From NCBI GenBank assembly GCA_001769535.1, contig MEOH01000002.1:124001-188000 (forward strand): a stretch of 64,000 nucleotides of DNA, given 5' to 3'. Both the position numbers and the translations under genes were made by a program. This DNA comes from Bacteroidetes bacterium GWF2_38_335. GTDB lineage: Bacteria > Bacteroidota > Bacteroidia > Bacteroidales > GWF2-38-335. Every line of letters starts with the position of its first letter. The stretch's first letter is position 1. The notes under the pieces were generated by a model, which saw only the letters and a program-made list of their open reading frames with translations, was not told the origin of the DNA and made no database searches. Positions 760-26,815 of this stretch are shown piece by piece.

Positions 760-2067
760 ATGAAAAAACTATTTATTGTATTAATTGCCGTTTCTCTTCT
801 TCATGAAGTTTGTGTTTCACAGGATTTCTGGCAGGAGACATTTAATTTTGGATCAAGCACTGGGCCTTTTGATTTTGTCCAGGACTCAGATGGGCGAATT
901 TATGCTGAATACCACAGTTCAATTACACTTTTAAGGTCTACTAATGAAGGATTGACATGGACAGCTTTAGATTCTTATTTACCTGCTGTTCCAATATATG
1001 AACACTGCACTTACAGTTACTTTTGTAAGAATGACATTTTATTCACTCATATTCATTCCGGCTCATACAGTGGATATATTAACATCGGTCATGGTATTTA
1101 CAGATCAAATGATCATGGAACAACTTGGGAAAAAGTTATTGAAGGTCTTGGAGCTGATACAAACATAGTGGAAATGTATCTTGCTCCGAACGGAAATATT
1201 CTAGCCTATCATGAATATTATGGCGATGCTAAAATATATACTTCTACCAATAATGGTAATAGTTGGACATTAACCTACAACCTTGGAAATTCTAAAGATG
1301 CAATATGGGTAAACCCGGCAAATGAAATTTTATTATCTTATGGTGCTAACCTCCTGTACAAATCTACAGACAACGGCATCACTTGGAATTACGTCAATAA
1401 TTCTTTTACCTATGCTATTAAGGATGAAATGTTAAAAACATCAGATGGTGCTTTAATAAATAATACAAGTCTTTCAGCCGGTACCGATATCTGGTATAAT
1501 AACTACAAATCAAATGATAATGGATATACCTGGGTTGACTGCGCTGATAACGATCTTGACAGTATTCGCATCATTACTCAATGCATAACAGCCGGAGATA
1601 CAATTTATTGCGGAACATTCGAAAACGAAATAACCAAATATATTTATTTTTCGGTTGATGAAGCCGAAACATGGGATACTGTTGACTTATCCGGAATAAA
1701 CTATATTAATTCCATATATGAAATTACAATAACAAAAAGTGGCTATCTATTAGCTTCAGTTTACTTTGACGGCATCTATCGCAGTGTTGAAAAAGTTTCT
1801 TCTCCAAGTTCAGGAATTCAGGATAATAATAATGATAAAAGCAACGTTAGTATTTATCCAAATCCTGCAAGTGATTATATTACTATTGAGGGGGAGAATA
1901 TTCAAAGGGTTGAGGTTTTTGATGTTATCGGAACTAAAGTGTTCTTTAAGAAATTGTCAAATGTTTCTGAGATTAGATTAAATACTGAAGAATTGTCAAA
2001 AGGGTTGTATTATATTAAAATATCAACTAATAATGGAATAGCACTAAAAAAACAAATAATAAAATAA
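760..2067 (+). CDS. Exported Asp-box (BNR) beta-propeller protein with T9SS type A sorting domain
   Basis: This 435-aa protein has a Sec signal peptide (about residues 1-20, ending near 'VCVSQ') and at least six Asp-box motifs of the S-x-D/N-x-G-x-T/S-W type, such as RSNDHGTTW and KSTDNGITW. These form a sialidase/VPS10-like propeller, without visible sialidase catalytic residues. Residues about 362-435 form a T9SS type A sorting domain starting with the typical YPNP (366-369) and ending in a basic tail. It should therefore cross the outer membrane through the type IX system and stay on the surface or be released. It is the first gene of a co-oriented run, with a 13-base gap to the next. A binding or scaffold role is likely; the ligand is unknown. 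Confidence 0.85.
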   Translation: MKKLFIVLIAVSLLHEVCVSQDFWQETFNFGSSTGPFDFVQDSDGRIYAEYHSSITLLRSTNEGLTWTALDSYLPAVPIYEHCTYSYFCKNDILFTHIHSGSYSGYINIGHGIYRSNDHGTTWEKVIEGLGADTNIVEMYLAPNGNILAYHEYYGDAKIYTSTNNGNSWTLTYNLGNSKDAIWVNPANEILLSYGANLLYKSTDNGITWNYVNNSFTYAIKDEMLKTSDGALINNTSLSAGTDIWYNNYKSNDNGYTWVDCADNDLDSIRIITQCITAGDTIYCGTFENEITKYIYFSVDEAETWDTVDLSGINYINSIYEITITKSGYLLASVYFDGIYRSVEKVSSPSSGIQDNNNDKSNVSIYPNPASDYITIEGENIQRVEVFDVIGTKVFFKKLSNVSEIRLNTEELSKGLYYIKISTNNGIALKKQIIK

Positions 2068-2080
2068 CTAGAAAAGTATA

Positions 2081-4279
2081 ATGGCTAAGATTCACACATT
2101 TGCTGATTTTGATCTTCTTCCAAATCAAAATGATAACACTCTAATAAACTTAAAGTATGGTCCTGTTTCCGGACATGAAGCCTCAAAATATAGAGTAAGC
2201 AGCATGTTTACAGGTTCAACTGGAAGTGGTGCTGAACATATTTTAGCATTTGCTGTAACAAAAGGTATTATTTTGGTTCAAAAAGCTAGTTCTGGAAGCA
2301 GTTTCAATCTCATTTTAAAACCAATAAATCAAAGTTCAGTTAATTTTACACCAGTAAAATATTTTATTTATAGAGGATTAAGCTGGGAAAGTTTAATTAC
2401 TGACCAAATAAACCCTGAATTCTTGATCCCTAGGAATAATTCATTCATGTCTGATCTTATTGATAAGATGTATGATGACTGGGATAATACTGATGTTTCA
2501 GCGAGTCTTCCTTCAAAGAATCTTGGAATTCACCTTGACTCATCTGTTCTTTCAGATAGTGCATTAATTGAAGAAGCTTTTGACGCATTAGGAACTGATT
2601 TTGACCTACCAATTGTAGAGGCAGGTGATAGTTTAGGTTTTTTTGATAATCTATATACATATGGATTTGAAATCATGCTAGAAGAATTTGGTTTTAACCC
2701 AACCATGAGAGAGGCTAGAGTTATAGATAATATTATTGAAATTACTGATTCATTACCTTCAAATCCAGAAGATGAATCTATAGTTATATTGCATAAGAGA
2801 GAAGCTATTTTAAATTACATCGACCCTGCAGTTTTCTATGGTCTACATTACAACACAAAAATAATCATACATCAAGGCTCTAGCACAGATAAAATCAAAG
2901 GAAATGAGCTTTACAATGAAGTTTTGACAAAATTTGCAACAAAAAATGTAGTTTATATTGATATTAGAAATGAACATCACCATTCATTTAATTACTATAA
3001 TAATTACCGAATGAGTGGAAATAATTATCCAAAGTTCAAATTAGGTATTGGACCTTCACCTGATATGAATCAACCTTACGTTCTTGAAGATTATCATAAA
3101 TATAGATGGCCAATGCATACTGAAGAATTTGACGGGGTGACAAATGACTCTGAAACATTAATATTAACAATGATGTTACCCCATATGGATAACTTACACC
3201 CTATACTTTTTGTTCCACAAAAGTTATTTAAAGAAGATAAAAAAGAAAAGAAAGTATTTAAAATTTTAAATAGAAGTAACTCTGATTGGAAATATACAGA
3301 GGAGTTTAAAATTGAAACCCCTTTTTATTTGAATTCTGGTGATGGTTTAAATTATAGTTTTCCATTTTATGTAAAGATAAACTACAATAAAATATATAAT
3401 GCCGAATTATTAAAAGATTTGTATGATGATGATAAGATAATTACACAGGTTGGAAGAACAATTACTCCTTATACAAATATTGATCATAACTTTTCACCAT
3501 TTTCTTATAAAGCTTCATGGAAGATTGATTCTGTTCCGACCAATTCACCTCAAACAACTGCTCCTTATGTTATAAATTGGGGAGGGTCTCCTGCAGAGTA
3601 CTTCAAAGGTTTAACTAGCTTCTTCGGGATATTGTTTACATCCATTCAAGGTGTTGCCAACGACGGTATTGGAGAAGTTGCCTATTCCTTCCTAGCAAGA
3701 GGTGAAATGACAAAAGATGATGATATAAAAGAGCACTATTCAATAGATTCATCAAAATTAAAAAGTATTAACTTTACTGCTAAAAGCTTAAAGTCACAGT
3801 TTAAATCTTTTTACGAGGCATATTACAAAAACTATGAAGAGTTTTTAAATGTAGTCCCATTTGATTTTGAAGATACTGTAATTCAAAGTGAGGTAGAACC
3901 TTTTGAATTTCTTCCTGTGAAGATATCACCTGAGGGGGAATCTGGTCCATTTACAATTTATAATTTCTTAAATAGTTATGAGAGAATTACGGATAATGAA
4001 TTTGAGATGATTACTTCATTTGCATATACTTTTGCTGAGAAGAATAGTATTATTCAGAAAATACAGGCAGAACTAAGTAATTATTCACATTTATATTTTA
4101 CTGTTCTATCATCTTCTGAAGGCGGATCTATAGATGGTGAAAACAGTTATATAGCAATTGAGCTTGGATTGTCAGGATTAGATTCATTAGGAAATGTTAA
4201 AACAATAAATTTAGGATTAACATTATATAGCCTGGACCAATTGAACTTTTGTTCAAGAAACTATTTTCAAGAAATCTAA
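2081..4279 (+). CDS. Unrecognised 732-aa protein, second gene of the giant-protein operon
   Basis: I do not recognise this protein. It begins MAKIHTFADFD and has no signal peptide, no lipobox and no T9SS sorting domain, so it looks cytoplasmic unless exported by an unusual route. It is acidic and mixed alpha/beta in appearance, with a conspicuous His/Tyr/Asn cluster near the middle (EHHHSFNYYNNY) after a hydrophobic strand pair (KIIIHQG, NVVYIDIRNEH). That pattern would suit a metal- or nucleotide-binding fold, but I cannot name one. It lies 13 bases after the T9SS propeller and 14 bases before the M19-like gene, so co-transcription and a shared function are likely. Confidence 0.7.
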   Translation: MAKIHTFADFDLLPNQNDNTLINLKYGPVSGHEASKYRVSSMFTGSTGSGAEHILAFAVTKGIILVQKASSGSSFNLILKPINQSSVNFTPVKYFIYRGLSWESLITDQINPEFLIPRNNSFMSDLIDKMYDDWDNTDVSASLPSKNLGIHLDSSVLSDSALIEEAFDALGTDFDLPIVEAGDSLGFFDNLYTYGFEIMLEEFGFNPTMREARVIDNIIEITDSLPSNPEDESIVILHKREAILNYIDPAVFYGLHYNTKIIIHQGSSTDKIKGNELYNEVLTKFATKNVVYIDIRNEHHHSFNYYNNYRMSGNNYPKFKLGIGPSPDMNQPYVLEDYHKYRWPMHTEEFDGVTNDSETLILTMMLPHMDNLHPILFVPQKLFKEDKKEKKVFKILNRSNSDWKYTEEFKIETPFYLNSGDGLNYSFPFYVKINYNKIYNAELLKDLYDDDKIITQVGRTITPYTNIDHNFSPFSYKASWKIDSVPTNSPQTTAPYVINWGGSPAEYFKGLTSFFGILFTSIQGVANDGIGEVAYSFLARGEMTKDDDIKEHYSIDSSKLKSINFTAKSLKSQFKSFYEAYYKNYEEFLNVVPFDFEDTVIQSEVEPFEFLPVKISPEGESGPFTIYNFLNSYERITDNEFEMITSFAYTFAEKNSIIQKIQAELSNYSHLYFTVLSSSEGGSIDGENSYIAIELGLSGLDSLGNVKTINLGLTLYSLDQLNFCSRNYFQEI

Positions 4280-4293
4280 AAATATATAAAAAC

Positions 4294-7200
4294 ATGAGTT
4301 TCGAAATAATTCCATATTTGAGATCAGAATTACAAACTTTAATTCCAATTTCACCATTTATTGCTTCCGAGGGGAAAGGTTTCTTATTCTATAATGTTGT
4401 TGAAGTAGATTATATTGATCCAGTTGAAAGTAAGATAGTTTTGAAAAACTCAACAAATTTATTTTCGATTGGAGATAAAATAAAATTACATGATTCAAAT
4501 GGGAGAATATTTGATGGAGAATACACCATCCTTGATATAAAAAATGATAATAAAGAGTATATGATAGATCTCTGGATTTATCATGATGGTTCAATTCAAA
4601 ATCAAACTTCAGCTCGTATCTCAAATATTACTGCATTGAAAATTGTTGATATTCCTGTTTCTCCTAGTCCTACTGGAGTTATTGTTGATGGTGATTATAC
4701 TAGTATAATCACTGGAAATGATGTATTAATTAGATCATCCAATGAATATGACGGATTTTATAATCTTTCTTCTACTCCTGAGTTAAGAAATGATCCAAGT
4801 GTACCAAGTGGAATTAAAAATTGGTTAGAGGAAGATATGTATGCCTGCGATTCTCATCTTCATGTCACAATGACATATAATCTTAAATCTGAGAAAAAAG
4901 GAGGGCAGTTCTATGTGTCACCAGGCTCAGATTCAAGTCAACAACAAGATGTTGGACTTCAAACTGCATTCAATCATCCAGTAATGCCTGGTAAATCAAC
5001 ATATTTATCATTTGTAGATGGTAGAGTAAGAACTGTATTCAATAGCTTGCATACTCCTGAAAGAGGTATGATTGTTAATTTTGCAAACTATTTATTTCCA
5101 ATAGCATTTGCAATAACCTTTGCCTTTCCAGATTGGATGGGCAGGGGGTTTAGAAATGGTCTACTTGGGAGAGCACTTTTAAATTTTAATAAATTGAAAT
5201 ATGGTGAGAATTGGAAAGAAACAAGGAAAGAAATTAGATTTCTACGAAACAAAATATTAAATCAGAATGATAAAATTGTTCTTATTAAAAATACTAGTGA
5301 TTATAATACTTATTTTAACGGAAGAGAATCATATTTTTCTAGTTCATCCAATGCCAAACTAATTAGATTTTTAATTCATATGGAAGGTGGGCATCAATTT
5401 GATATGGACCTCTACAGATTGGATAGAAATTTTGCTTTAGAAGACAATGGAAGTAATACATTAACAGATTCCTATGGAAATTTACTTTATCCACCACATC
5501 CAGATTATAATTCTTCAGTTACTTCTCATGAAATGCTAAATAGTGGCAATGATCCGAGTCACGATTGGTATGGAGGATTTCATAAAACTAATCATATTCA
5601 ATTATGTTTAAATAGATTTTTAAGTTTGTCACAAACTTATGATGGTTCAAATGAATATGCAATTAACTTAATAGGATGGACTCCAATGCATGCATATTGG
5701 AATGGTATGGGAGCCCAGGGTAAAATGATACATGATGAATTCATGTCAATAATTACCATGCCACGCCCAGAGAATTATATGAGAAAAAAAGTATATACAA
5801 GGGATGAAAAGGGTAAGCAATATGAAGATGATCAAATAAGAGGTTTTCGCTTTGAGAAATGCACCAGACTAACAGAACTAGGCAGACAGATGATAAAAAC
5901 TGCATTTAGAAATGGGATTATTATTGATTTGAAACATTATCATAAAAATGCAAGATTACAAATCTTAAATATGGCTGAAAGAGGATTTGACTATAATCCT
6001 GTTTATGGAATCTTTGGTGACCCAAAACTTAATCCAGATCAGTGGTTATATAAAGATGAACTTGAATCTGCAGACCCCGTTATAAATCCAACTATTGATG
6101 ATGGTATTTTCAGTGTTGAAAATCAAAACACAAAAAACACCCTTAGTAACAATAAATATCAAATAATGGTTACACATGCTGCTCTATCATTGGTTGATAG
6201 AAACGGAACCAATATTGATAATATTCGTCAAAAGATTGATAATAACGAAACTTCTACCTTATCTAGCTTTGATATACCACTATTACCATTTTATGAAGAT
6301 GAACTAAGAAAAATACTTAACCAATTATATCCAGATATAAGTGTTAGTTATCAAAAACATCATGATATAAATGGAAGTCCATTATTTTTCTCACAACCAG
6401 ATAGCGTTCAAGACATTAAAAACAAAGTTTCTGCAGTGATATCTACTTATGTAGATGCACCGAAAATACAAGAGTACTTTGAGTATTTCTTTCCAATGTT
6501 TTTAAGAAATACTCATAACCACGATAATTTAAATATTGATAATTATGAAATAGAAAGAATAATAAAACTTGGAGGAGTAATTGGTTTAATTTCGGAAGAC
6601 CGTGTTATTAGAAGTAATGAAAGAATGTTTGGAAAAGGAAATAGAAGAAAAAAGAATAAAGCACCCTCAAAAACATTTAGTAATACATCATTTATAGATG
6701 ACTCAAGTGTTCCATATAATATTAACCTATGGCCAATGTATGGTTCAAATATAACAGAAGTTGATGGAGGAGTTGATTATCTAGCAGGTAAGCCTTTTGA
6801 TTTTAACGATTTGAACTCCTCTGCAGCTTGGATACCATTTGAAGATGAGTTAGCTTGGAACGCCAAAGGTTTATTTGCAGAAATACAAATTGCATTGGAT
6901 AAGATATATCATGAATATATGACCAAACATTATGGAAATACTCCACAAGAATGGCATTATTATAAAAGTTTTTATGCAGCCAATAAAACATATGCAAATC
7001 TTTTTAAAAATGGTGTCCTTGAAAAGTTTAAAGATGGAGATATAACTAAGCCAAATGTTAATATTCAGGCAATTTCATGTATGGAGGCTTTTTATAAAGC
7101 AATAGACCATATTGCTAAGGTTGCAAGATTAAATATATATCAACCATTAAATTTAGATCTATTACCTACAGATTCTTTAGCAACTATTAAAGTAAAAATA

Positions 7201-7545
7201 TTAAGATTCTATCGAAACATATGTATTTCCTCTGATTTTGATGGTATCACGGATGTAATGTCTTTATATGCATCACCTCGTCTCTATCCAGTAATGGCAT
7301 TATATGTTGCAAATAGGCTAAAGTGGGATTTGTATCGAAGATATATTGTAGATCCTTCAATACCAGACATGAAGATTGGTCCCGAAAAAGGACAAACTAT
7401 ACCAATTGATGAAGGTTTTATTATGGCATTAGATAACTTAGATGCAACTCATTTAAATGATATTGTCAAAGATATAATGAAACAATTATTAGATACAAAC
7501 TTTATTAATATGATTGCATATGCTCAAGGTTGGGATACTCCTTAA
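4294..7545 (+). CDS. Giant renal-dipeptidase (M19)-like amidohydrolase
   Basis: I chose the ATG at 4294 rather than an upstream in-frame TTG at 4249 that overlaps the previous gene. The 1083-aa protein has no signal peptide. It carries the ordered landmarks of membrane dipeptidases (peptidase M19, amidohydrolase superfamily): D186-S-H188-L-H190, E364 in HMEGGH, an LTELGRQ block followed by D545-L-K-H548, H628 in MVTHAAL, a GGVIGLI block after RNTHNHDN, and SDFDG (D981, D983). In the family these bind two zinc ions and hydrolyse dipeptides or related amides. Typical members are about 350-400 aa, so the long N-terminal part and large insertions are unusual. The metal ligands look kept, but activity and substrate are unknown. 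It overlaps the next gene by 26 bases. Confidence 0.7.
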   Translation: MSFEIIPYLRSELQTLIPISPFIASEGKGFLFYNVVEVDYIDPVESKIVLKNSTNLFSIGDKIKLHDSNGRIFDGEYTILDIKNDNKEYMIDLWIYHDGSIQNQTSARISNITALKIVDIPVSPSPTGVIVDGDYTSIITGNDVLIRSSNEYDGFYNLSSTPELRNDPSVPSGIKNWLEEDMYACDSHLHVTMTYNLKSEKKGGQFYVSPGSDSSQQQDVGLQTAFNHPVMPGKSTYLSFVDGRVRTVFNSLHTPERGMIVNFANYLFPIAFAITFAFPDWMGRGFRNGLLGRALLNFNKLKYGENWKETRKEIRFLRNKILNQNDKIVLIKNTSDYNTYFNGRESYFSSSSNAKLIRFLIHMEGGHQFDMDLYRLDRNFALEDNGSNTLTDSYGNLLYPPHPDYNSSVTSHEMLNSGNDPSHDWYGGFHKTNHIQLCLNRFLSLSQTYDGSNEYAINLIGWTPMHAYWNGMGAQGKMIHDEFMSIITMPRPENYMRKKVYTRDEKGKQYEDDQIRGFRFEKCTRLTELGRQMIKTAFRNGIIIDLKHYHKNARLQILNMAERGFDYNPVYGIFGDPKLNPDQWLYKDELESADPVINPTIDDGIFSVENQNTKNTLSNNKYQIMVTHAALSLVDRNGTNIDNIRQKIDNNETSTLSSFDIPLLPFYEDELRKILNQLYPDISVSYQKHHDINGSPLFFSQPDSVQDIKNKVSAVISTYVDAPKIQEYFEYFFPMFLRNTHNHDNLNIDNYEIERIIKLGGVIGLISEDRVIRSNERMFGKGNRRKKNKAPSKTFSNTSFIDDSSVPYNINLWPMYGSNITEVDGGVDYLAGKPFDFNDLNSSAAWIPFEDELAWNAKGLFAEIQIALDKIYHEYMTKHYGNTPQEWHYYKSFYAANKTYANLFKNGVLEKFKDGDITKPNVNIQAISCMEAFYKAIDHIAKVARLNIYQPLNLDLLPTDSLATIKVKILRFYRNICISSDFDGITDVMSLYASPRLYPVMALYVANRLKWDLYRRYIVDPSIPDMKIGPEKGQTIPIDEGFIMALDNLDATHLNDIVKDIMKQLLDTNFINMIAYAQGWDTP

Positions 7546-9703
7546 CAGTTCACTATATACACTTACCTTGATTTTTTGCTTTTTAAGTGCAAACTCACAA
7601 AAAAGTGAATCAAGAGTGTACTCTGATAGCTTCTACCAATTGCCTGGTGAAAAAATGGCAATCACTAGCCTAAATGATGGAGGGGTTGTCTATTTGACAT
7701 ATCAAGGTTTTTGGCACTTTGCAAGTTTTAGTAACGATACCTTCTTTATAAAGAACTTTTATGCTTCTCTAGACCTAAAGTTACCCTCGTATAAGTGGGG
7801 CGAGGAATCTGGATTCCTAATACTATATAAAACTAATGATGAAGGAGAGATAATCTGGGCTAAGAATATAGGTAATTATATCACCGGTAGAGTATCGCAA
7901 AGGATGACCATAAAAGAGATTTCGAATAATAATCTATTAGTTTGTTATTTGGGAAATATTATTAAACTAAACTCTTCAGGTGAGAAATTATGGCAAATTA
8001 ACTTAAGAAAAGATAGTGTTCCAGAAGTTAGAAAATCAAAACTATTATCCTTAACTCCAATTTCAGATATTAATGAATGTAAAGATGGTAGTTTGATAGC
8101 ATTGCTTGATGCAAGTTTTTCTTTGTTAAAAATCAACCCAAATGGTGAAATTCAATGGATAAGAAGCACCTTGTTTGAAGATGTTAATGCTTTATTATAT
8201 GACGATGTTACAGATAAATATAAAAATGTTTGCACTAATAAAGCAACAAGAAAGACAGAAAATGGTACCGAGTCTGGGTTAGATAGTACATATTATCGAA
8301 TTTCAAATTATGGACATGGTGGAGGTGTTGATATAAGAACCTTTGCAGTTTATGAAACACATGATAAAGGATATATTGCACTTGGTAAAAATAGTTATAG
8401 GTGCAGAAATATGATTACTAAAATAGAAAAAGGCCAAAAAGAATACAAAAACTATTATTATAACGGGGTAGGTTATTGTAATGAATATGAGATATTAAAC
8501 CCCGAGGTAGTTTATGAGGTTTGTAATTTAATTTATCCTGGATTCTATAGCGAGCAAAAAGAAGGTTGTAAATCTTTTGATGGAATTGTTTTGATTAAAA
8601 CAGATAGTTTAGGAAATGTGGAATGGGAAAGACAAATGGGTGATAAAGGCTTTGCTGATCATTTAACTTATGCGGATCTTTTAAAGTTAGAAGATAATAA
8701 TTTTTTAATTAGAATTAGAACTTGTGATAGTATAAGATATGAGTATAATAATTTTCAAAAAAGAAGAGTGCCAATATATGGAGATGCTCATAGTAAAGTC
8801 TTTATATATAATGAAGATGGTGATTTAGTTGAGGATAATTCCATTTGGCCTTTTAAACTTGACCCATGGTGGATTGACACCTCATCCGAAGGTGGATATT
8901 TTGCAGGAAGTCAGAATAATGTTTATAAGCTGAATAAAAATTTGGAAATAGAGTGGCACTGTGGTTATGGCGGATGGGCATCCGACCTAGGTTATCACTC
9001 TCCTACAAAGGATGATGGCGTACTATGTATAGATAGAAAAATTATATATAAAATTGATAAACATGGAAATCTTATTAATGATTCTATAAGAATCCAACCA
9101 AGTGTTAATGGAGATACATTAAGGCTTATTCGTGAAATGAAATCTAATAAAGACATAGCATGTAGAATTGAAATAAAGGCACTAACTCAATATAATACAG
9201 AAAATCAAGAATTTGCTGTAGATGATAAGGATTTGATTTATAGAAGATATGAACTTGCAAATGTTCTTTTCCCATATAGAAAATTAGTAAATCAAAGAAA
9301 TTATGAAAAAAGTGAGAAGTACTTTGCTATTCCTGTATTTCCTGGGGAGCAAACTGTTACAGATTCAATTGAAAGTAGTATATCTCCAGAAGTATTTTCT
9401 TTTTATCCAAAAAGTATAAAATCAATTTGGTCAAAAGATCAATGGTTAGATTTGCTTAACGATATTAAGTATCATAAAAATTTCATATATTGCATAAATG
9501 ATTTAGATAATCTTAACGGATTAAAAATCAATTCCAAAAAAAGAATTAACCACATAAATACTGTTTTTAACGGTGGAAAGGTATTAATCGTGTTGAACTT
9601 GCCTCAAGGAAAATATATCTATAAAGTATATTCTAATAACAATAATATTGAGTTTGAAAGTAGTCAATTATTATATAAAGGGGAGTTTGAAATAAAAAAT
9701 TAA
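7520..9703 (+). CDS. Exported propeller-like protein
   Basis: I chose the ATG at 7520 over an in-frame TTG at 7514. It gives a clear signal peptide (about residues 1-27, hydrophobic core LYTLTLIFCFL, ending ANSQ). The body has repeats of the form 'G-E/N-x-x-W' preceded by a hydrophobic strand (EIIWAKNIG, EKLWQINL, EIQWIRS, NVEWERQMGD), as in PQQ-like or YVTN-like propellers. The last ~45 residues (VLIVLNLPQGKYIYKVYSNN...) resemble a degenerate secretion-system C-terminal domain but lack YPNP, so T9SS export is only possible. It overlaps the M19-like gene and is followed after 5 bases by the 2758-aa gene. It is one of only two genes in the operon with an obvious signal peptide. Confidence 0.75.
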   Translation: MLKVGILLNSSLYTLTLIFCFLSANSQKSESRVYSDSFYQLPGEKMAITSLNDGGVVYLTYQGFWHFASFSNDTFFIKNFYASLDLKLPSYKWGEESGFLILYKTNDEGEIIWAKNIGNYITGRVSQRMTIKEISNNNLLVCYLGNIIKLNSSGEKLWQINLRKDSVPEVRKSKLLSLTPISDINECKDGSLIALLDASFSLLKINPNGEIQWIRSTLFEDVNALLYDDVTDKYKNVCTNKATRKTENGTESGLDSTYYRISNYGHGGGVDIRTFAVYETHDKGYIALGKNSYRCRNMITKIEKGQKEYKNYYYNGVGYCNEYEILNPEVVYEVCNLIYPGFYSEQKEGCKSFDGIVLIKTDSLGNVEWERQMGDKGFADHLTYADLLKLEDNNFLIRIRTCDSIRYEYNNFQKRRVPIYGDAHSKVFIYNEDGDLVEDNSIWPFKLDPWWIDTSSEGGYFAGSQNNVYKLNKNLEIEWHCGYGGWASDLGYHSPTKDDGVLCIDRKIIYKIDKHGNLINDSIRIQPSVNGDTLRLIREMKSNKDIACRIEIKALTQYNTENQEFAVDDKDLIYRRYELANVLFPYRKLVNQRNYEKSEKYFAIPVFPGEQTVTDSIESSISPEVFSFYPKSIKSIWSKDQWLDLLNDIKYHKNFIYCINDLDNLNGLKINSKKRINHINTVFNGGKVLIVLNLPQGKYIYKVYSNNNNIEFESSQLLYKGEFEIKN

Positions 9704-9708
9704 AAATT

Positions 9709-17985: not shown

Positions 17986-18012
17986 TGTTTACAAAAGTTA
18001 AAATTAAATATA

Positions 18013-21000
18013 ATGCCACAGAATCCTGAAATAGTAATAAACAGTAATGACAAGGTCCAGTCACAGTATACTTATATACAAGCTACGGGATCGACCGGAA
18101 GTGATGGAAGCACTCAGGGAATTCATTTAAGATGGGATTTCAGAGATGAGTTAGGTGAAAAGCACTTGCCTAAAGGAAACCCTTTATCCTCTTACCCTAC
18201 TTCAAGTCATTTCCATAAACCAGATGATTTTGTAAAAGTTTTCAAAACTGCATACATCAAAAAATACCCTGCAGTTGTTGATTTTGCAAATAAAATGCCG
18301 GACAGGATTAATTCAGGCAGTATAAGGGAATGGGAATTTGATATTCCAATAAATTCAATTCTTAACGAAAGTGTAACTACCACAATTATTATCCGGTTTA
18401 GCAATATAGCTGCATATAACCTTATTGCTTCCTCTATTAATCCATTAACAAACCCATTTAATTTTTTAAGTGAATACTCACAATATACAGGGTCACATAT
18501 TGAAGTTGAAGCAAAAAACAAACTCTGCTTCGCTGTCACCCTTAATATGGTTTACATTAATGAAAGTTTGCCCGGAGCTGTTAAAACTGAAGCTATTTCA
18601 ACTTTTGATAATAAGGAAAACGTAATTTCATGCAGAAAAACTTTTAATATTGACGCTTATTCAGGTCCGGGACAACCTGTCCCAATTGTTGATAACGCTG
18701 TTTTTCTAATTCCAAAAGGCGGGATAATTAGAATTGAAGTTGAAAATATCCAGTACTTGAGATTTAACTATGCAAACGTTACTCCTCTTCAAATAACAGT
18801 TGAAACATATCATGATTTTATAGTTGGCACAAATAATGCCGATTTGAACAACTGGCAGGATATTGGCCAGTTCGCATTAACCGAAGATAATGCCATTGCC
18901 CATGAAAGACTTGAAGGGCCAGCAGGAAGTAACTGGGGAATTAATAATTGGCCCAGATTCATCAACGGACTCACAACAAATATTGTCAATTATAAAGACA
19001 AATGGGATGACCCGTTAAATCCTGAGGACAGAATCAAAAACGGCGTTCAAAGTTACCTTCTTAACAGTACTAATCTTAACCCGGCTTCAAATGTTGTTGT
19101 GCCTTATGAAACCACATCAGAGGAAACAAATGATGCAAGTACTGAAGTAAGCTATTTAAATCTCCTGAAGCTTGTTGCCTGTGATTTTCATATTGCCAGA
19201 ATGCTTGGGCTTGGGTATATTGATGAAATAACCATCTCACCTGACCCAAACAAATACATATACTTATTATTGTATGATACAGTTGCTTCTTTAGGCGAAG
19301 ATCCTGCAGCCCTGGTAAGTCATTTTTACATGACAATGCCAACTTCCAAGAATGATGCCTGTTTGCCGGATACCCCTATTTTAAGTCATCTCTCCTATGG
19401 ATTGGAAGTCCCGGCTACCCCCACACCAATTCAGTTGACCGACCCTGGAGGATATCTTCCTTACCATGACATCAGATATATCAGATTGTTTAGGACAATA
19501 ATACTTAATGAACTCCCCTATTCGCCGGTATTTTATGAAAACCCTGATGAATTCTGTTCAAGGGGTAAAACCGAAACAATTTTCTATGGTTTGGATTATC
19601 GAATTCAAGGAAGTGGTTCATGGGATCCAGGACTTAGCTTTGATGCTGAATATAATGAAGTTGTACCCATTCCTAATCACTCAGGTTCATGTCCAATTTT
19701 TACACATGATGAAAGAAATGAAGGATTTCATGAATACCAGATTTACGGAATTAATTGGTTTTCCCGTCCATCAACTGAGAGCAACATATTAGCTACAAAT
19801 GAAACCAAATTTCCCATAAGGAATACCCTCCTGCCCCCATCAAATTTTTCTGTTCAATTAATTCAAAAGGAAGAACCCAGAATTTTTACAACCATTAGCG
19901 AACAGACCAAATTACAAAATATTGACCCATCCTCGAATGATGATGAAATTTTAGTCAGGTCAACTTTCTATTGGAACCATGTACATCACATGGGCTATCA
20001 GTTTCAGGACCCTTCTTTTGAAACATTTAAAGTTAAAGCAGATAAAATTCAATTGTTTTTCAGACAAAACCAACCTGATTCAACAAGGGGAATAATAACA
20101 GATGTAATCAGCATCAGTGACGAAAAGGCCTGTGTGATTGTTGGCGCTTACAACGATTATACTCAAAACCCTCCTGTCACTTATACGCCTGAAATCATTA
20201 GCGGGGTCCATTATACTTCCTTTAATTCAGGTGAAAAAACGTTTCTTATTGACTCAATTCAGGATTTAGGGGGAATTTATAATATCACTATTTATAAAAT
20301 CGTTGAAACTCAGTTGACAGAAGTAACCATCGGAGGGGTTGGCACCAATGAGTTTGTTGCTGCAAAAACCTATATTTCCCCCAATATTGATGATTATTTT
20401 TCATTAACTGAAGATATTTCCAACCCGGATAATTCAACCTGGCCAAAGAAAATTTCAAATAAAATAATTGATATCGTACATTTTGAAACAAACCTGAAGG
20501 AAGACGGAACTATTTTGACCACTCCACACATTCACACTGAAACAAGGTCTGGAATGGATGGGCAGAATTCAACATTAATAATTGGTGGCATTTTTGAAAA
20601 AGCTGAAGTGGCTGAAGTTCCGGATCGTGACATTAATAATAATGAAATTCCCAATTCCAGAACAGGAGTGTTTAAAATAACCTTTAACGGGAATCCATTG
20701 ATTGTTCACCCCCAGCCCGATGTCTATTGGTATAAAGGAACCATACGAATTAATTACGACCCTGATTTATCATTAAATCCAAATTATAATGACCCAAATT
20801 CAGGATATGAGTTGGATTTAGGTGAAAAAAAGGTATTAGAGGTAATTGATATTGATCAAACAGGCGCAAATTTAGTATTAACTGTTGTTGATTCCACATT
20901 TGAAATTGACACTTCTTCTGGCGGGTATAATATTACAGGTTCCTATCAACCAATTCTGACCGGCACGAATATCCTGGTCAACTTTCATCCAGGATACAGA

Positions 21001-22617
21001 GTATATTTTTATGCAGAAACCGGGTTCGACAAACCTGAAATATTACCCGCAATTGGGGCTGGGTCCCGACGATCATTTATGGGAGCAAATTCCATTGACT
21101 TATCTGAAAACCTTGAATCAAAGGTTTCCTCTCCTGCCCTTTTACTGGCATTGGAAATAATTGTTCCAGAACCACCTGCTGAACCAAGTGGACCTATCTT
21201 TGCAACAAGACCCGACTTTTACGGGAAATCAACTTATACATTTGACACACTGGTTAAGCACAACCCAACCAGACAACCCTATTCATTGATTTTCTATAGG
21301 GCAAATGAAAGGTCTGTGCTTGATACCTTATACAAATCCTCCACGGTTGACAGTATATTATCAGCTATCAAAGCATTATCAGAAACTGATCAACTTTATA
21401 TGAACGATTACTGGCGTGGTTTGGTCAATGCAAATATCACATCAGGTCAGTTTACTGATATTCATGGTGTCTTCCAGTTTCCGGTTCCCGATAACGACCA
21501 ATACGTAATTCCGGGAACAACAATTAAACCTTTTGACGGAATAACATCAATTACAGACGATCTTGTTGTTAAAAATGCAATCAAAGGGGCTTTTTTGCCA
21601 CTTACAGAACAACCGGTCATATACAGTCAAATTGAAATTGGCAAACAAACCCGAAAGTCAACTCCGGTTTTTTATGATAACGAGGGACGAAGATTAATGC
21701 CGGATGATTCAAGGTTTGATCCATTTCCTATGGCCGTTAAATATGATGAAGGAGATGGTGAATATTGGAGTGTAAGATTCACTGACTTCACAATTGATGG
21801 TGCTTCAACTTCAATTTTTTTCTATTATGCAGTTGAAATGACAAATAAAATGATGTTAGGCGATCCTAGTCCAATTGCAGGTCCGATTCATCTGATCAAT
21901 TCATTCCCCCCTGAACCACCAGAGATAAGAAAGGCAACAACTATTCTTGATAACCCGGTTTTGGGAATTAATGCTTCAGTAAAATTAGAAATAAATAAAT
22001 ATTTACCTGCTGATAAAATTTCAGGTATTCAGATATACAGGGCAACAAATGTTAAAGATGCCGGAAGTGTAAGAACAATGAAACTTGTAAAAACTATTGA
22101 GCAGGACCTGCAGGCATCTCCACCAGTTTTATTTACAGATATACAGGAACAAATAATTGATGATTTCTCTGACTTGACAATGCCTCCATTTGGGGATACA
22201 ATTTTCTACAGATTAATCGCATTAAGAAAAATAACAAATGAGCAAGGGTTAGAGGAAAACATCCCGTCAGAGCAATCAACTTTGAGTTTGACCAGCTTAG
22301 TAGACGTGATAAACCCTGAAGCCCCGATATTGTCATTTGAAACGGGCGAAATTATCAACCCGGCAATTCTACCCGCCGTTCTGCTTAAATGGGGAAAAAC
22401 TGTTCATAACGGCAAGTACTATTTATATAAGATGAATAGCTCAGGAAATTGGGGGTTGATTGACACGATCATTACAAATGATGAAAATATTTTTTATGAA
22501 ATCGGAGATATTATAAAAAAAGATGAGGACGACAATACAGTTTACTCCAGGTACAAGGTAAGTGTCGAAAACACATCAGGTTTATTAAATCTTACAGATA
22601 AAGAATTAACTATTTAA
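18013..22617 (+). CDS. 1534-aa FN3-containing structural protein
   Basis: This protein starts MPQNPEIVINSND and has no signal peptide or sorting domain. The N-terminal 60 residues hold a short Thr/Gly/Ser-rich stretch (ATGSTGSDGST) followed by HLRWDFRDELGEKHLPKG, which looks like a conserved family start. The middle and C-terminal parts contain FN3-like beta-sandwich segments with proline-rich joins (LPPSNFSV, FPPEPPEIRKA, PEAPILSF), and 'IQIYRATN' and 'SLIFYRAN' strands typical of such repeats. I cannot assign a catalytic function. It lies 27 bases after the 2758-aa gene and 10 bases before the beta-helix gene, so it probably works in the same assembly. A structural or baseplate-like role is inference. 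Confidence 0.75.
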   Translation: MPQNPEIVINSNDKVQSQYTYIQATGSTGSDGSTQGIHLRWDFRDELGEKHLPKGNPLSSYPTSSHFHKPDDFVKVFKTAYIKKYPAVVDFANKMPDRINSGSIREWEFDIPINSILNESVTTTIIIRFSNIAAYNLIASSINPLTNPFNFLSEYSQYTGSHIEVEAKNKLCFAVTLNMVYINESLPGAVKTEAISTFDNKENVISCRKTFNIDAYSGPGQPVPIVDNAVFLIPKGGIIRIEVENIQYLRFNYANVTPLQITVETYHDFIVGTNNADLNNWQDIGQFALTEDNAIAHERLEGPAGSNWGINNWPRFINGLTTNIVNYKDKWDDPLNPEDRIKNGVQSYLLNSTNLNPASNVVVPYETTSEETNDASTEVSYLNLLKLVACDFHIARMLGLGYIDEITISPDPNKYIYLLLYDTVASLGEDPAALVSHFYMTMPTSKNDACLPDTPILSHLSYGLEVPATPTPIQLTDPGGYLPYHDIRYIRLFRTIILNELPYSPVFYENPDEFCSRGKTETIFYGLDYRIQGSGSWDPGLSFDAEYNEVVPIPNHSGSCPIFTHDERNEGFHEYQIYGINWFSRPSTESNILATNETKFPIRNTLLPPSNFSVQLIQKEEPRIFTTISEQTKLQNIDPSSNDDEILVRSTFYWNHVHHMGYQFQDPSFETFKVKADKIQLFFRQNQPDSTRGIITDVISISDEKACVIVGAYNDYTQNPPVTYTPEIISGVHYTSFNSGEKTFLIDSIQDLGGIYNITIYKIVETQLTEVTIGGVGTNEFVAAKTYISPNIDDYFSLTEDISNPDNSTWPKKISNKIIDIVHFETNLKEDGTILTTPHIHTETRSGMDGQNSTLIIGGIFEKAEVAEVPDRDINNNEIPNSRTGVFKITFNGNPLIVHPQPDVYWYKGTIRINYDPDLSLNPNYNDPNSGYELDLGEKKVLEVIDIDQTGANLVLTVVDSTFEIDTSSGGYNITGSYQPILTGTNILVNFHPGYRVYFYAETGFDKPEILPAIGAGSRRSFMGANSIDLSENLESKVSSPALLLALEIIVPEPPAEPSGPIFATRPDFYGKSTYTFDTLVKHNPTRQPYSLIFYRANERSVLDTLYKSSTVDSILSAIKALSETDQLYMNDYWRGLVNANITSGQFTDIHGVFQFPVPDNDQYVIPGTTIKPFDGITSITDDLVVKNAIKGAFLPLTEQPVIYSQIEIGKQTRKSTPVFYDNEGRRLMPDDSRFDPFPMAVKYDEGDGEYWSVRFTDFTIDGASTSIFFYYAVEMTNKMMLGDPSPIAGPIHLINSFPPEPPEIRKATTILDNPVLGINASVKLEINKYLPADKISGIQIYRATNVKDAGSVRTMKLVKTIEQDLQASPPVLFTDIQEQIIDDFSDLTMPPFGDTIFYRLIALRKITNEQGLEENIPSEQSTLSLTSLVDVINPEAPILSFETGEIINPAILPAVLLKWGKTVHNGKYYLYKMNSSGNWGLIDTIITNDENIFYEIGDIIKKDEDDNTVYSRYKVSVENTSGLLNLTDKELTI

Positions 22618-22627
22618 ATTTTAAAAA

Positions 22628-24415
22628 ATGGCATATCTTCCGGCAGATTTTACAGGAACATATTGGCGAATTCTAGATGGCGACATTTATGTAAGCAGTT
22701 TAGGAGATGACACTTCGGGAAATGGAAGCCCTACACATCCGTATAAGAGTTTTCAAAAAGCGATTAATGTTGCTGTACCAAGTAATAGAATTATTGTTGG
22801 TACCGGATATTATTCTGGTAGTATAAGTGGCTTGGATAAAAACGATTTACATTTTTATGCAGATGGCATAACTAATATTAAAGGTTCGCTTGAAAAACTT
22901 GGAAACAAATGCAGTTTCAATGGTTTTCACTGTAAAGACTTTGTCATCGGCGGAAAATGTAAGTTCATTAATAACTGCCGTTTTATAAATGGCGGGTTGA
23001 GGTCAAATATTGGTACTGTGGCAAACAGTCTCTTTGTAAATAGTCTTATTACAGCATCGGGGACAAATCTGTATAATTGTTCATTTATAAATTGTAAAGT
23101 TGGAGCCGAATTGCAGTATAATTTTATTGAAATTTTAGATTGTCATTTTGATTCTCACACAACAGCCAATCTCAAATCAAACTTAACTTCCGTTTTCGAT
23201 TATTGTAATCAGGAGCCGGGATCGTCGGTTTTTATCGATTCCATTGAATTCGGTAATGCAGCAGCAGTTCATGCTGCTTTTAATTCTTATCAATCAAATG
23301 GAGTAAGTTTCCTGCCTATTTTCAATAATGAATTCATGCTGGATTATACGTTACATTTCACCAGTCCATTGATTGAAAGAGGAAGTAATGGTCAGCATAT
23401 TGGAGCGTATAAAGAGGGTTTCTCCTTGCATAGTCCGGTTAATGTCAGTAATAGTTTTGCACTTACAGGAGCTGCTTTGACAAATATTTTAATTGATCCT
23501 GACGGAAATTATCAGTTAACAGGCTTCCCTTTAGACGGATCAATTGATACAAAGGAAATTGATTTGCAGGGAGTAGTTTTATTAAGTGATTTCTTTTTAT
23601 ATGCAGAACAGTCATTTGAAACCCCAAATCATAATGCTGTTGTTGACACAGAAAATATTTATTCGCATCCTAACATTTTAACTTTTAAGATGCGGTATTC
23701 CGAAAATCCCTTAACCACTGAGCATTTTAAAGTTTTCGCATGGGGTAAGCAACCTACAATTGATGCCAATGGTAAAGCTAATGGGGAGGTCGGCTTTGAT
23801 GTTTCGACAAGTGAAGTTATTTACGCAAGATATGTTCATATTATCATAGTCCTGGTAAATGGAACTGATACAAATCACATTCCCATTTTCAGAGGCACAA
23901 GTATGGCATATTCAAGATCTCAGCTATCATTGAATGTAAAAGATATTTATGGGACAGATTTGGAAAATGCACAAATAACTGTTAATGATGGAATAAATAC
24001 TGTGACAGGGGCAACTGACCAAAATGGTTGCTTTTCTACATTAATGGCACCAAATACTGAATTTGAATTGACTGTCACTAAGCAGTTTTTTGAAGATAAA
24101 AATTGTAAAGCAATGCTGATGAGAAAGCTAAGCTTAAGCGACCCGACTCATAACTTTGCATTTATATTAAGAGATACTGCAGGTAACCCAATTGAAAATG
24201 CAAATGTTACAATTAGTTCACCAAGCCATAGTGAAGCAGGTACGACTTCAATTGAGGGCTTTTATGATGGAAATATTATTCCGGAATTTGAAAATAAGCT
24301 GATTATAGAGAAATCAGGAATTGTTTACCTTCAATTGTTCAATCCATATATTTCACTACAATGTGGAGATCCAAACCTTATTGTTGTTCAGGTAATTGAA
24401 TATGATTTTGTATAA
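22628..24415 (+). CDS. Parallel beta-helix protein with two Cna-B/carboxypeptidase-like domains
   Basis: The 595-aa protein has no signal peptide. Residues about 15-270 begin with the pattern DIYVSSLGDD-SGNGSPTHPYKSFQKAI, the usual start of right-handed beta-helix proteins (DUF1565/pectate-lyase-like), followed by short Cys/Asn-rich coils (CKFINNCRFING, YNCSFINCKV). Residues about 428-510 and 511-590 are two carboxypeptidase-regulatory or Cna-B-like beta-sandwiches (LSLNVKDIYGTDLENAQI and FILRDTAGNPIENANV). Helices of this kind are common in tail spikes and adhesins and often bind polysaccharide. No clear catalytic acid cluster can be picked out. It is ten bases after the previous gene and 24 before the next one. 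Confidence 0.75.
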   Translation: MAYLPADFTGTYWRILDGDIYVSSLGDDTSGNGSPTHPYKSFQKAINVAVPSNRIIVGTGYYSGSISGLDKNDLHFYADGITNIKGSLEKLGNKCSFNGFHCKDFVIGGKCKFINNCRFINGGLRSNIGTVANSLFVNSLITASGTNLYNCSFINCKVGAELQYNFIEILDCHFDSHTTANLKSNLTSVFDYCNQEPGSSVFIDSIEFGNAAAVHAAFNSYQSNGVSFLPIFNNEFMLDYTLHFTSPLIERGSNGQHIGAYKEGFSLHSPVNVSNSFALTGAALTNILIDPDGNYQLTGFPLDGSIDTKEIDLQGVVLLSDFFLYAEQSFETPNHNAVVDTENIYSHPNILTFKMRYSENPLTTEHFKVFAWGKQPTIDANGKANGEVGFDVSTSEVIYARYVHIIIVLVNGTDTNHIPIFRGTSMAYSRSQLSLNVKDIYGTDLENAQITVNDGINTVTGATDQNGCFSTLMAPNTEFELTVTKQFFEDKNCKAMLMRKLSLSDPTHNFAFILRDTAGNPIENANVTISSPSHSEAGTTSIEGFYDGNIIPEFENKLIIEKSGIVYLQLFNPYISLQCGDPNLIVVQVIEYDFV

Positions 24416-24439
24416 AGTTTAATTTTAAAAATAAATACT

Positions 24440-26815
24440 ATGCCAGACAAGAAAATTTCCGAGTTAATAGATGGTGGCGCAGTCCAACCTACCGACTTAC
24501 TAGTAATTGCCCGTGGTACAGAAAACAGAAAAGTGTCTGTCGATAGCTTACTGTCATCTGTGAGCGGTGGAGCAACATTTATTGAGTTGACACAAGGTGA
24601 ATTGATAAATAAAATCAATAATAATGAATTAATAAAGGGCGGTTATTATTGTATTACCGATTATCAGTGTGTAAATCATTTAACAAACGACCTGGATCCC
24701 GGGCTTGTTAATGTTGGTCCGGTTGAGCCATTGGTTGTTCTGGCAATTGGAACGGATAAAGTTAGTAAACAGGCAATATCATTATTGTATCCCGATGATG
24801 TGATTGAATATGATGCTACTGCTATTCAAATGGACGCAAAGCTAAAGGCACAATATAGTGGAGGAACAAATCATGAGTTTGTAAATATCTCCATTCTTAA
24901 TGAGCAAACATTCAGTTTAGATAAAACACCTGTAAATTATCAAACAGACTTTTATATGTCTCTTCAGGTTGGAAATCCAAAAACTGGTTTTTTAGTACCC
25001 TTCACTGAATATAGCCATAACGATTATGGAACAAAATTCACAATTTCAGGTAATCAACTTACTTTTATTGACCCAAATCATGCATATTTAATAACTGGCG
25101 GAACCACAGTGTCAATTACCGTTATTAGCAATTTCAAAATTCTTGAAAACGTAAAAGGGGTAATAAACAGCAGGGAAAACTTAACCAATAACGTTAGATT
25201 GCCTTATGACTTTAGATCTTATCGTGTAAGGAGATATGAATTTGATTTAACCTCAATTGATTCTGAAATTGGAATTGATAAATTAGGTTGGGCTCCTCAA
25301 ATAACAATCGGAAAAGACGAGCATACTTTTAATACTACAGGAGCTTATAAGGATATGCTCACAATCAACATGAACAACTACGATGTAAGAAACTTAATAG
25401 TAGATAAAATAAAGTATTTCCCTATTTACAATTTTGTTATAAAGGGATCGTGTAACGGAGTAAAAATTGAAAATAATTTTTATAACAATACACTTTTTGG
25501 TGATTTTGAAAATGTCACATTTGGAAGTAACTGTATGGAAAATATCATAGTTAATGATATGTCCTGCAACAAAATTGGACACTGGTTTAAAGGAAATATT
25601 ATCAAAAGTCAAATAAAAGACAATCATATACTTAATTACTGTCAGTACAATGAATTCGGAAAGTTATTTGAAAGAAATACAATTGGCAATAAATTTAACC
25701 ACAATAAACTGGTTAATGTATTTATTGACAACCAAATAAAAGATGATTTCAATAGTAATACAATTACATACAGCAATAAATGCTTTTTCGGAAACAGATT
25801 CACACAAAATGTAATTCAGGCTACTTTTAATAATCAGTTTGGCGATGATTGTTCAAATAATAATCTTACATGTTCCCAATTTCATGACAATAATATTGAA
25901 AGCAACTTTAAAAATAACACTATTATATCTAATGACTTCTTCTACAATTGGATAAAAAGCAATTTTATGAACAATACTATTAATTCTCCACTTTTCAAGG
26001 AAAATAGCATTGGGTATTACTTTTACAATAATGTTCTGTCTCAAAATGTTTACAATAATGTTTTCGGGGACAGATTTATGAGTAATTCATTGTTAAGCGG
26101 TGAAATCACCGGAAGTGTTTTCGGAACCAATTGTTCCAATAATCAATTAAGTAGTAATTATAATGGCAATATTGTCGGTAATTTCTTTAGTGACAACGTA
26201 ATTAACAATGCATTCTCAGCAAATGAGATTGGCAATAATTTTTCTCAGAATCAAATAAACGGACTATTTCAAGTTAATAAAATTGATAGTGGCTTTAACT
26301 TAAATACAATTGCAGGAAATTTTAATTACAATAACATTAAAAATGGCTTCGGTTCAAACAATTGCAATGGTAATTTTGGAGGTAATCAAATAAACAATGG
26401 TTTTTTGGGCAATACCTTAGGTTTATTTGAAAACAATGTCATTGAAAACAATTTCAACAGCAATCAGGTTACCGGTACTTTTTCATATAACAAAACCAGT
26501 CAGGTATTTAATAGTAATCAAATAAATGCCAATTTCAAAAATAATATTGTTGAAACAGAATTCATGAACAATATTTTTAACATTGATGCAAACTACAATG
26601 TTTTCAGGTGTTTCTTTAAGCAAAACACTATCGGGGATTCATTGGTTTCAATAATTCAGCGAGCAATTTTTGAGTGCGATTTCCAATCAATTGTTATTGC
26701 CACAGGACCATTATTTGACACTGAATACACAAAACATGTTGAAAAAAGAGAAACAAGTGGACACACTATATGGTATTTTGATAATTTGAATGTTATGCAG
26801 GTTGTTGGGGTATAG
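24440..26815 (+). CDS. Asn-rich beta-helix protein with tail-fibre-like N-terminus
   Basis: The 791-aa protein opens with KISELIDGGAVQPTDLLVIA and then RKVSVDSLLSS. This is the layout seen at the N-terminus of many phage tail-fibre and baseplate-attached proteins. Residues about 313-734 are dozens of short coils of the form N-x-x-x-x-N-F-x-x-N-x-I (for example NNFSQNQINGLF, NFNYNNIKNGF), predicting a long regular beta-helix stabilised by Asn ladders. A short non-repetitive C-terminal cap ends in VMQVVGV. There is no signal peptide. It is the last gene of the eight-gene run. A receptor-binding or spike role is likely by analogy; the surrounding structural genes are not recognisable phage genes. 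Confidence 0.75.
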   Translation: MPDKKISELIDGGAVQPTDLLVIARGTENRKVSVDSLLSSVSGGATFIELTQGELINKINNNELIKGGYYCITDYQCVNHLTNDLDPGLVNVGPVEPLVVLAIGTDKVSKQAISLLYPDDVIEYDATAIQMDAKLKAQYSGGTNHEFVNISILNEQTFSLDKTPVNYQTDFYMSLQVGNPKTGFLVPFTEYSHNDYGTKFTISGNQLTFIDPNHAYLITGGTTVSITVISNFKILENVKGVINSRENLTNNVRLPYDFRSYRVRRYEFDLTSIDSEIGIDKLGWAPQITIGKDEHTFNTTGAYKDMLTINMNNYDVRNLIVDKIKYFPIYNFVIKGSCNGVKIENNFYNNTLFGDFENVTFGSNCMENIIVNDMSCNKIGHWFKGNIIKSQIKDNHILNYCQYNEFGKLFERNTIGNKFNHNKLVNVFIDNQIKDDFNSNTITYSNKCFFGNRFTQNVIQATFNNQFGDDCSNNNLTCSQFHDNNIESNFKNNTIISNDFFYNWIKSNFMNNTINSPLFKENSIGYYFYNNVLSQNVYNNVFGDRFMSNSLLSGEITGSVFGTNCSNNQLSSNYNGNIVGNFFSDNVINNAFSANEIGNNFSQNQINGLFQVNKIDSGFNLNTIAGNFNYNNIKNGFGSNNCNGNFGGNQINNGFLGNTLGLFENNVIENNFNSNQVTGTFSYNKTSQVFNSNQINANFKNNIVETEFMNNIFNIDANYNVFRCFFKQNTIGDSLVSIIQRAIFECDFQSIVIATGPLFDTEYTKHVEKRETSGHTIWYFDNLNVMQVVGV

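Follow-up and report, generated by a model that had tools for sequence, protein, structure and literature searches.

The eight-gene operon at positions 760-26815 of a 64,000-nucleotide stretch of Bacteroidetes bacterium GWF2_38_335 is probably a member of an antibacterial polymorphic-toxin locus, in which a leaderless toxin, giant carrier proteins, and fibres are built in the cytoplasm and released by lysis. The whole stretch (contig MEOH01000002.1, positions 124,001 to 188,000; G000:C2:124001-188000 in our numbering, from a genome of 5.27 Mb in 29 contigs) is referred to as the window. The locus class is apparently an undescribed bacterial weapon, and in the literature outside subscription papers no described system of this make-up was recognised. 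If true, it would represent a new delivery vehicle in bacterial warfare that is tail-less, fibre-bearing, and lysis-released and that carries swappable toxins. In addition, DUF6603-like proteins would gain their first functional context, and the locus might serve as a source of targeting modules.

The operon consists of eight open reading frames (ORFs), P0001 to P0008, which all lie on the + strand and encode, in order, 435, 732, 1098, 729, 2758, 1534, 595, and 791 aa. For P0003, the ATG at 4294 is preferred over the TTG at 4249, and for P0004 the ATG at 7520 over the TTG at 7514. With these starts, the genes from P0001 to P0008 are spaced by 13, 14, −26, 5, 27, 10, and 24 bp, which bears out the co-oriented arrangement described in the first-pass annotation with gaps of 5-27 bp and one 26-bp overlap. 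The core is formed by P0002, P0005, and P0006. P0002 (2081..4279), a leaderless protein of 732 aa, is the first conserved gene of this core. P0005 (9709..17985) is a giant, leaderless, and β-rich protein with a distant likeness to DUF6603, which is single-copy in the window genome; its residues ~1-1370 and 1520-1944 are conserved, and its C-terminal 800 aa are found in the same genus only. A structure model of the P0005 core, based on four sequences, contains strands, but with a predicted local distance difference test (pLDDT) value of 46 it is too poor for use. P0006 (18013..22617), likewise giant and leaderless, is co-conserved with P0005, and its relative in genome G281 shows a weak N-terminal von Willebrand A match. 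Neither a signal peptide (judged by eye) nor a sorting domain (Pfam and NCBIfam scans) is seen in P0002, P0003, P0005, or P0006. P0002, P0006, and P0008 have no Pfam match at E up to 1, and PDB sequence searches yielded no credible relative.

The core is common to other loci of the class, where P0002, P0005, and P0006 stand in this order and are mostly accompanied by slots for a toxin and its immunity protein and by fibre genes. Co-conservation, the absence of which the first-pass annotation had named as refuting its proposal, is found for all three genes in seven other loci (G005, G084, G343, G281, G323, G150, and G635), of which G084, G281, and G343 belong to one large genus and G005 to a different family of the order of the window genome. 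A hidden Markov model (HMM) built from the other loci recovers P0002 at 1.1e-53; its relatives in G005 and G150 are longer, with 1471 and 1142 aa. The closest locus, G001 of the same genus (JAFGXD010000183.1), carries P0005 to P0008 in order up to the contig edge with identities of 66, 70, 57, and 42%. P0006 is rare, being present in three of the 295 genomes of the order, the window genome included, with single-protein and profile searches in agreement. Among 395 genomes of the phylum, its profile is positive in six including the window genome, the new ones being G084, G281, G343, G323, and G150. In the large genus, P0002, the slot protein described below, and P0005 occur in order in eight of ten further loci. 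The G005 locus (JAQICB010000104.1) reads as a GH108 endolysin, two small ORFs, a holin-like protein, the P0002 relative, an exported 464-aa protein, the P0005 and P0006 relatives, and a fibre-like protein of 619 aa. Searches of genome contigs with the P0005 alignment returned only the two already known relatives. Against viral contigs, the same alignment found one record, IMGVR_UViG_2890587071, which is the G635 locus; P0005 alone and query A1 found nothing there, and query A6 only the G635 record again.

The position between P0002 and P0005 is occupied in G084, G281, G343, G323, and G635 by a related protein of 987-1188 aa, the slot protein, which consists of a constant N-terminal region and interchangeable C termini. 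The set compared comprises 16 slot proteins; one genome has two copies, and a 500-aa length filter left out a 99-aa fragment in G780. Of 240 ordered pairs, 226 match, with a median of 4 aa unaligned N-terminally as opposed to 279 aa C-terminally; the other 14 have no match at 1e-5 and stand outside these medians. For example, the proteins of G343 and G760 share 70% identity over residues 1-813 and those of G758 and G817 79% over residues 1-975, beyond which both pairs are unaligned. G084/G760 and G758/G794 are aligned almost to the end and have the C terminus in common. Between G084 and G343, identity falls from 73-85% in the first 360 aa to 51-77% in the middle and 18-29% in the last 150 aa. 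When G084 is compared with G281, the six genes before P0002 are 91-99% identical, and P0002, P0005, and P0006 87, 80, and 79%, as opposed to 23% for the slot protein. Of 199 large-genus genomes, 11 including G084 carry the slot protein; since some of these are complete single-contig genomes, cultured strains probably exist and the idea is testable. In G694, two consecutive copies of P0002 plus slot protein stand before P0005 (L104, L105).

Some C termini may belong to known toxin types. EndoU_bacteria is the best Pfam match of the G694 C terminus (1.8e-4, 22.3 bits), and Toxin-deaminase that of G799 (0.0063, 17.1 bits) and G793 (0.0092, 16.6 bits); YwqJ-deaminase matches G794 (0.15, 12.7 bits) and, as second match, G758 (0.34, 11.5 bits). 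All of these lie below the curated cut-offs (25.3 bits for EndoU, 29.6 for Toxin-deaminase, and 25.9 for YwqJ). The G794 and G758 C termini both carry G-x-HAEIRALN and PRC-x-DC. Some C termini have what we take to be a nucleotidyltransferase-like look.

The small gene behind the slot protein of the relatives changes together with the C terminus. When ORFs are counted from 70 aa up, in all 16 cases the first one behind the slot gene starts between −3 and +23 bp from the end of that gene. In 120 locus pairs, the C-terminal 170 aa and the downstream ORF are both related in 5, the C terminus only in 3, the ORF only in 7, and neither in 105. This association gives a Fisher p of 2e-4 (6e-6 with 200 aa), and the observed 5 is reached in 8 of 10,000 shuffles; these values are only indicative because the loci are related by descent. 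In addition, orphan arrays of such genes exist. The G780 array holds homologues of the immunity-slot ORFs of G281 (1e-68), G769 (2.4e-61), and G343 (8.3e-60), and the G758 array those of G817 (8.2e-106) and G789 (8e-75). In G780, the 99-aa slot-protein fragment stands before the first orphan immunity gene. Toxin-immunity logic is well supported in the relatives. Such arrays have a counterpart in the type VI secretion system (T6SS) of Vibrio cholerae, for which PMC5361080 describes incoming effector-immunity modules that displace old effectors and often leave the immunity genes behind.

In the window, the two slots are occupied by P0003 (4294..7545) and P0004 (7520..9703). P0003 is an M19-dipeptidase-like protein that matches Peptidase_M19 (PF01244) at 4.3e-8 and 33.1 bits (cut-off 26), the best stretch covering 38 residues, 540-577. 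In an alignment with two M19-family proteins of the window genome, it keeps HLH, MEGGH, IDLKH, and SSDFDG, which we take to be metal-binding places of M19 enzymes. Similarity to these two proteins is low by BLAST (best E 0.02), and alignment of the fifth site failed. M19 does not count among the toxin families. The window genome encodes a second diverged M19-like protein elsewhere, of 467 aa and with an HxH motif (L116, G000:C27:236311-236793). The gene for P0004, of ~727 aa, shares its first 26 bp with the end of P0003, and the start of the protein looks signal-peptide-like as judged by eye and not by a signal-peptide program.

Two remnant modules lie at C2:285 kb, ~150 kb from the operon. 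Each consists of a P0003-tail ORF (131 and 142 aa), matching just the last 110 residues of P0003 at 53 and 47% identity, and a P0004 homologue (700 and 702 aa) that follows 3-4 bp behind. Modules of this kind are the expected leftovers of effector displacement, and they parallel the slot-protein fragment and orphan immunity gene of G780. A 46-residue scrap of the P0003 tail is found in G027, which belongs to another family. A full-length P0003 relative was found neither in 345 phylum genomes plus 60 near genomes nor in the genome-contig scan. Position, remnants, and the weak M19 match are best read as pointing to P0003 as a toxin and P0004 as its antidote; the roles rest on these points because P0003 has no homologue among the slot proteins of the other loci and P0004 no match there at 1e-4. 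An exported antidote would fit a toxin that acts in the envelope. The P0002 relative of G005 has a weak peptidoglycan-binding match (0.075) and, by eye, a lysozyme-like tail, with the exported-looking 464-aa protein next to it; judged from these two cases, G005 may show the same pairing.

Behind P0006, fibre genes are found. In G281, these comprise a gp53-like C terminus (2.6e-8) and a Phage_fiber_rpt match (4.8e-9), and in G323 four related fibres. The window carries P0007 and P0008 at this position. P0007 (22628..24415) is β-helix–like and contains CarboxypepD_reg domains as well as a weak DUF1565 match (0.0063). P0008 (24440..26815) is repetitive with a start that appears tail-fibre-like by eye and is 42% identical to its counterpart in G001. 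It has no NCBIfam match and weakly resembles a protein of Sphingomonas phage PAU (29% identity, with 18% of its length covered, E 0.007). The fibre profiles of the relatives recognise neither P0007 (E 0.049) nor P0008. Among P0001-P0008, PHROGs tail families are matched by P0007 only, by 'tail protein' (phrog_4577, 9.4e-5) and 'major tail protein' (0.16).

Lysis genes accompany the locus in most relatives, with an endolysin gene close upstream of P0002 in 12 of 18 genomes, the window genome not being among them. Three endolysin families are involved: CHAP in 10 of the 13 large-genus genomes by profile (Pfam-checked in G281, 2e-14), M15 in G323 (1e-18), and GH108 in G005 (8e-24). In 8 of these 13 genomes, three genes follow one another upstream of P0002, for a transmembrane (TM) protein of 95-114 aa, the CHAP endolysin, and a lipoprotein, and in two more this row is interrupted by small ORFs. 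The holin-like protein of G005 matches the holin family phrog_3427 (6.9e-8), although it fits a family without assigned function better (2.7e-16) and stays below the cut-off of the Pfam holin model. In G281, neither the 95-aa TM protein nor the 166-aa lipoprotein could be assigned to a holin or spanin family. Release by lysis of producer cells would be in line with this arrangement. The closest known mode is the type X secretion system (T10SS; holin, endolysin, and spanin) of Yersinia entomophaga, which, according to PMC10847048, lyses a subset of cells and so releases Tc toxin that has folded in the cytoplasm; T10SSs are described there as occurring inside Tc operons too.

Taken as a mechanism, the leaderless toxin would be loaded on the giant proteins P0005 and P0006, perhaps via P0002 as a possible adaptor, and the two giants would carry the fibres for target recognition. 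The resulting fibre-bearing particle would be assembled in the cytoplasm and leave by lysis of the producer cell, as the Tc toxin of Y. entomophaga does via the T10SS. Other bacteria would be the target. In the window genome, M19-like P0003 would be the toxin acting in the envelope of the target and P0004 the exported antidote. The first-pass annotation had suggested an intracellularly built fibre complex, and this part fits the leaderless giants of the relatives and the phage-type fibre genes behind them. The toxin-immunity logic and the lysis genes escaped it because they are visible only in relatives or outside the window.

Several observations weigh against a lysis-released toxin locus of this kind. 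The slot proteins of the other loci share no homology with P0003, and these loci hold no match to P0004 at 1e-4. No C terminus scanned matches a toxin family at the curated cut-off; five of the ten in one Pfam set match no toxin family, and neither does an earlier Pfam set of other C termini nor the NCBIfam scan. PDB profile searches gave nothing either. P0005 was not seen within the 20 kb fetched in G758 and G780, G150 has no same-strand ORF directly behind P0006, and a separate slot protein is missing from G005 and G150, which have just the longer P0002 relative. In 5 of the 18 genomes (G150, G635, G694, G794, and G799), no peptidoglycan hydrolase was recognised upstream among labelled ORFs. 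In the window genome itself, the CHAP endolysin (phrog_9589, 8e-26) lies 5.9 kb upstream of P0002. Between the two are two + strand genes, P0001, and a 786-bp gap that contains a − strand ORF; neither a holin nor a spanin was recognised in this genome. Locus L023 (14188-17973), between the CHAP gene and the operon, encodes an amidohydrolase-family protein (686 aa) and a membrane-type protein of 571 aa.

A further step, which we hold to be possible but somewhat against expectation, is a new class of delivery particle that has no tail, bears fibres, and takes exchangeable toxins into rival bacteria. It would be made up of P0005, P0006, and the fibres, would be related neither to contractile systems nor to Tc toxins, and would have DUF6603 operons as distant cousins. 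The cousins meant herein are those of Bacteroidota, Actinomycetota, Pseudomonadota, and haloarchaea, which contain families f4 and f3 and, in some cases, an enzyme, for example a subtilase. Like P0005, DUF6603 members sit in operons of large proteins. P0005 matches DUF6603 (PF20248) at 29.1 bits (cut-off 27) with a best stretch of 128 of the 502 model positions' worth, and at 20 bits in the genome search. To annotated DUF6603 proteins of Mycetohabitans plasmids it is 23% identical over ~1000 aa (2e-32), and the P0005 HMM matches a DUF6603-annotated Mycetohabitans protein at 1.8e-80. Mycetohabitans are endofungal symbionts. On these plasmids, the neighbours of the P0005-like giant are a phospholipase-D-like protein and a protein of 1322 to 1330 aa (L062, L063), the latter being found weakly by the P0006 profile (7.8e-5 and 6.2e-5).

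Canonical DUF6603 proteins occur in 15 of 345 phylum-ring genomes, the window genome included, of which 13 are above cut-off. Their operons of large proteins recur in haloarchaea, Streptomyces, Nocardia, and Rhizobium. The P0005-family HMM finds none of 14 canonical Bacteroidota members at E 0.01 and, of the plasmid-borne canonical set, one from Nocardia, weakly (5.9e-5). Conversely, HMMs of the canonical DUF6603 clusters recognise none of P0001-P0008, and those of the canonical partners f1 to f4 find neither P0002 nor P0006 (best E 0.2). In hhalign comparisons of single window proteins with the DUF6603-cluster families, nothing rose above threshold (probability 1.6% in the one case inspected). 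P0005 was consequently rejected as a straight DUF6603 member: the link is distant because the cluster HMMs and the P0005 HMM fail in both directions, and the canonical operons are distant cousins of the window locus at most. The literature search found no paper naming DUF6603. The combination of DUF6603, f4, and f3 is common to the Bacteroidota operons (L033-L035, L037, L038) and to L065-L072, with a subtilase in L033 and L072. In L027, a DUF4135-match protein (458-2455, 9.3e-19) is encoded directly upstream of the DUF6603 protein.

Alternatively, the locus could be a toxin-immunity system whose large proteins belong to the surface or matrix and are exported by the type IX secretion system (T9SS) or another non-lytic route, the endolysins being incidental. 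For this speak the export features of P0004 and of P0001 (760..2067), an exported protein with a BNR/Sortilin-type propeller (Sortilin-Vps10, 1.2e-11) and a T9SS type A sorting domain, which here counts as accessory. The latter assignment agrees with the first-pass annotation (TIGR04183 at 48.1 bits with a cut-off of 23; Por_Secre_tail, PF18962, at 6.9e-15). Moreover, PMC7073777 reports Sec signals for most TANFOR polymorphic toxins and, in a heading, T9SS-secreted proteins in TANFOR toxin neighbourhoods. Export of this kind is nevertheless unlikely in view of the leaderless P0002, P0003, P0005, and P0006 and of the TM, CHAP, and lipoprotein row of the large genus. A T9SS partnership in particular, put forward by the first-pass annotation as an unusual export system working with P0001, was rejected: P0001 has no relative at its position in the other loci, and a T9SS-type protein located towards the end of the G005 locus aligns with it over 93 aa only, which correspond to the sorting region (residues 339-431).

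The fibres, the endolysin, and the giants could also be leftovers of a degraded or domesticated prophage tail module, retained as cargo or without any function. Such an origin would account for the N terminus of the first G323 fibre, which matches structural proteins of Flavobacterium phages (E 5e-6), for the phage families to which the endolysins belong, for the phage tail match of P0007, and for the G635 locus, which adjoins a prophage. In G635, however, an integrase stands between the operon and the phage genes, which by eye include tape-measure–, portal-, and terminase-like ones. Furthermore, 50,697 phage records contain no relative of the G635 P0005/P0006 proteins, P0002, P0003, or a canonical DUF6603 protein, and long open reading frames are preserved in the core genes of several families. 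The turnover of immunity genes implies present selection, and the immunity arrays weaken the prophage explanation as well. It was rejected as the principal one because of the absence of the searched core proteins from phage records together with the immunity turnover, and we regard it as quite improbable. The M19 and BNR domains alone would permit an operon of the ordinary kind, whose metabolic or surface proteins have nothing to do with each other and are large by chance; this reading is highly improbable and refuted by synteny, given the ordered co-conservation across families, the fibre genes, and the toxin-type turnover.

Compared with known systems, the lysis-released toxin locus proposed here combines features of several. 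It shares with the T10SS/Tc toxins (PMC10847048) toxin proteins that are very large, cytoplasmic, and devoid of dedicated secretion signals, an endolysin that in the relatives lies close upstream of the cargo genes, and, in G005, a holin match. It differs in that the window proteins have no Tc domain, no spanin was recognised, phage-type fibre genes are added, and toxin and antidote change together. A Tc toxin was rejected since no Pfam match to TcA, TcB, or TcC was found in P0001-P0008 at E up to 1. With polymorphic toxins, including the T6SS arrays of V. cholerae (PMC5361080) and the TANFOR toxins of Bacteroidetes (PMC7073777), it has in common the constant N terminus, the variable C terminus, the adjacent immunity gene, and the orphan arrays, as well as EndoU and deaminase types, which are here represented by subthreshold matches only; in contrast to these, it is leaderless and includes two giant core proteins together with fibre and lysis genes. 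Pfam and NCBIfam scans of P0001-P0008 gave no match to TANFOR or T6SS families. For TANFOR, NCBIfam was also without a match in two slot proteins, the presence of a TANFOR model in that library being unchecked.

Tailocins and extracellular contractile injection systems resemble the locus in their fibre genes, toxin cargo, and probable lytic release. They were rejected as an identity since no sheath, tube, or baseplate domain was matched in P0001-P0008 with Pfam. Capsid, portal, and terminase genes were likewise not recognised among these proteins (Pfam, PHROGs), in keeping with the first-pass annotation, which had seen no sheath, tube, or capsid gene. We know of no counterpart of the giant proteins in these systems.

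Downstream of the operon, the window encodes at 28310-29635 a secreted-looking protein with an S74 endosialidase chaperone-like C terminus, and the next protein has a T9SS-like tail (both by eye). Farther on, a 1133-aa protein at 36721-40122 combines, by eye, a restriction-endonuclease–like N terminus with a P-loop region and is a possible defence gene.

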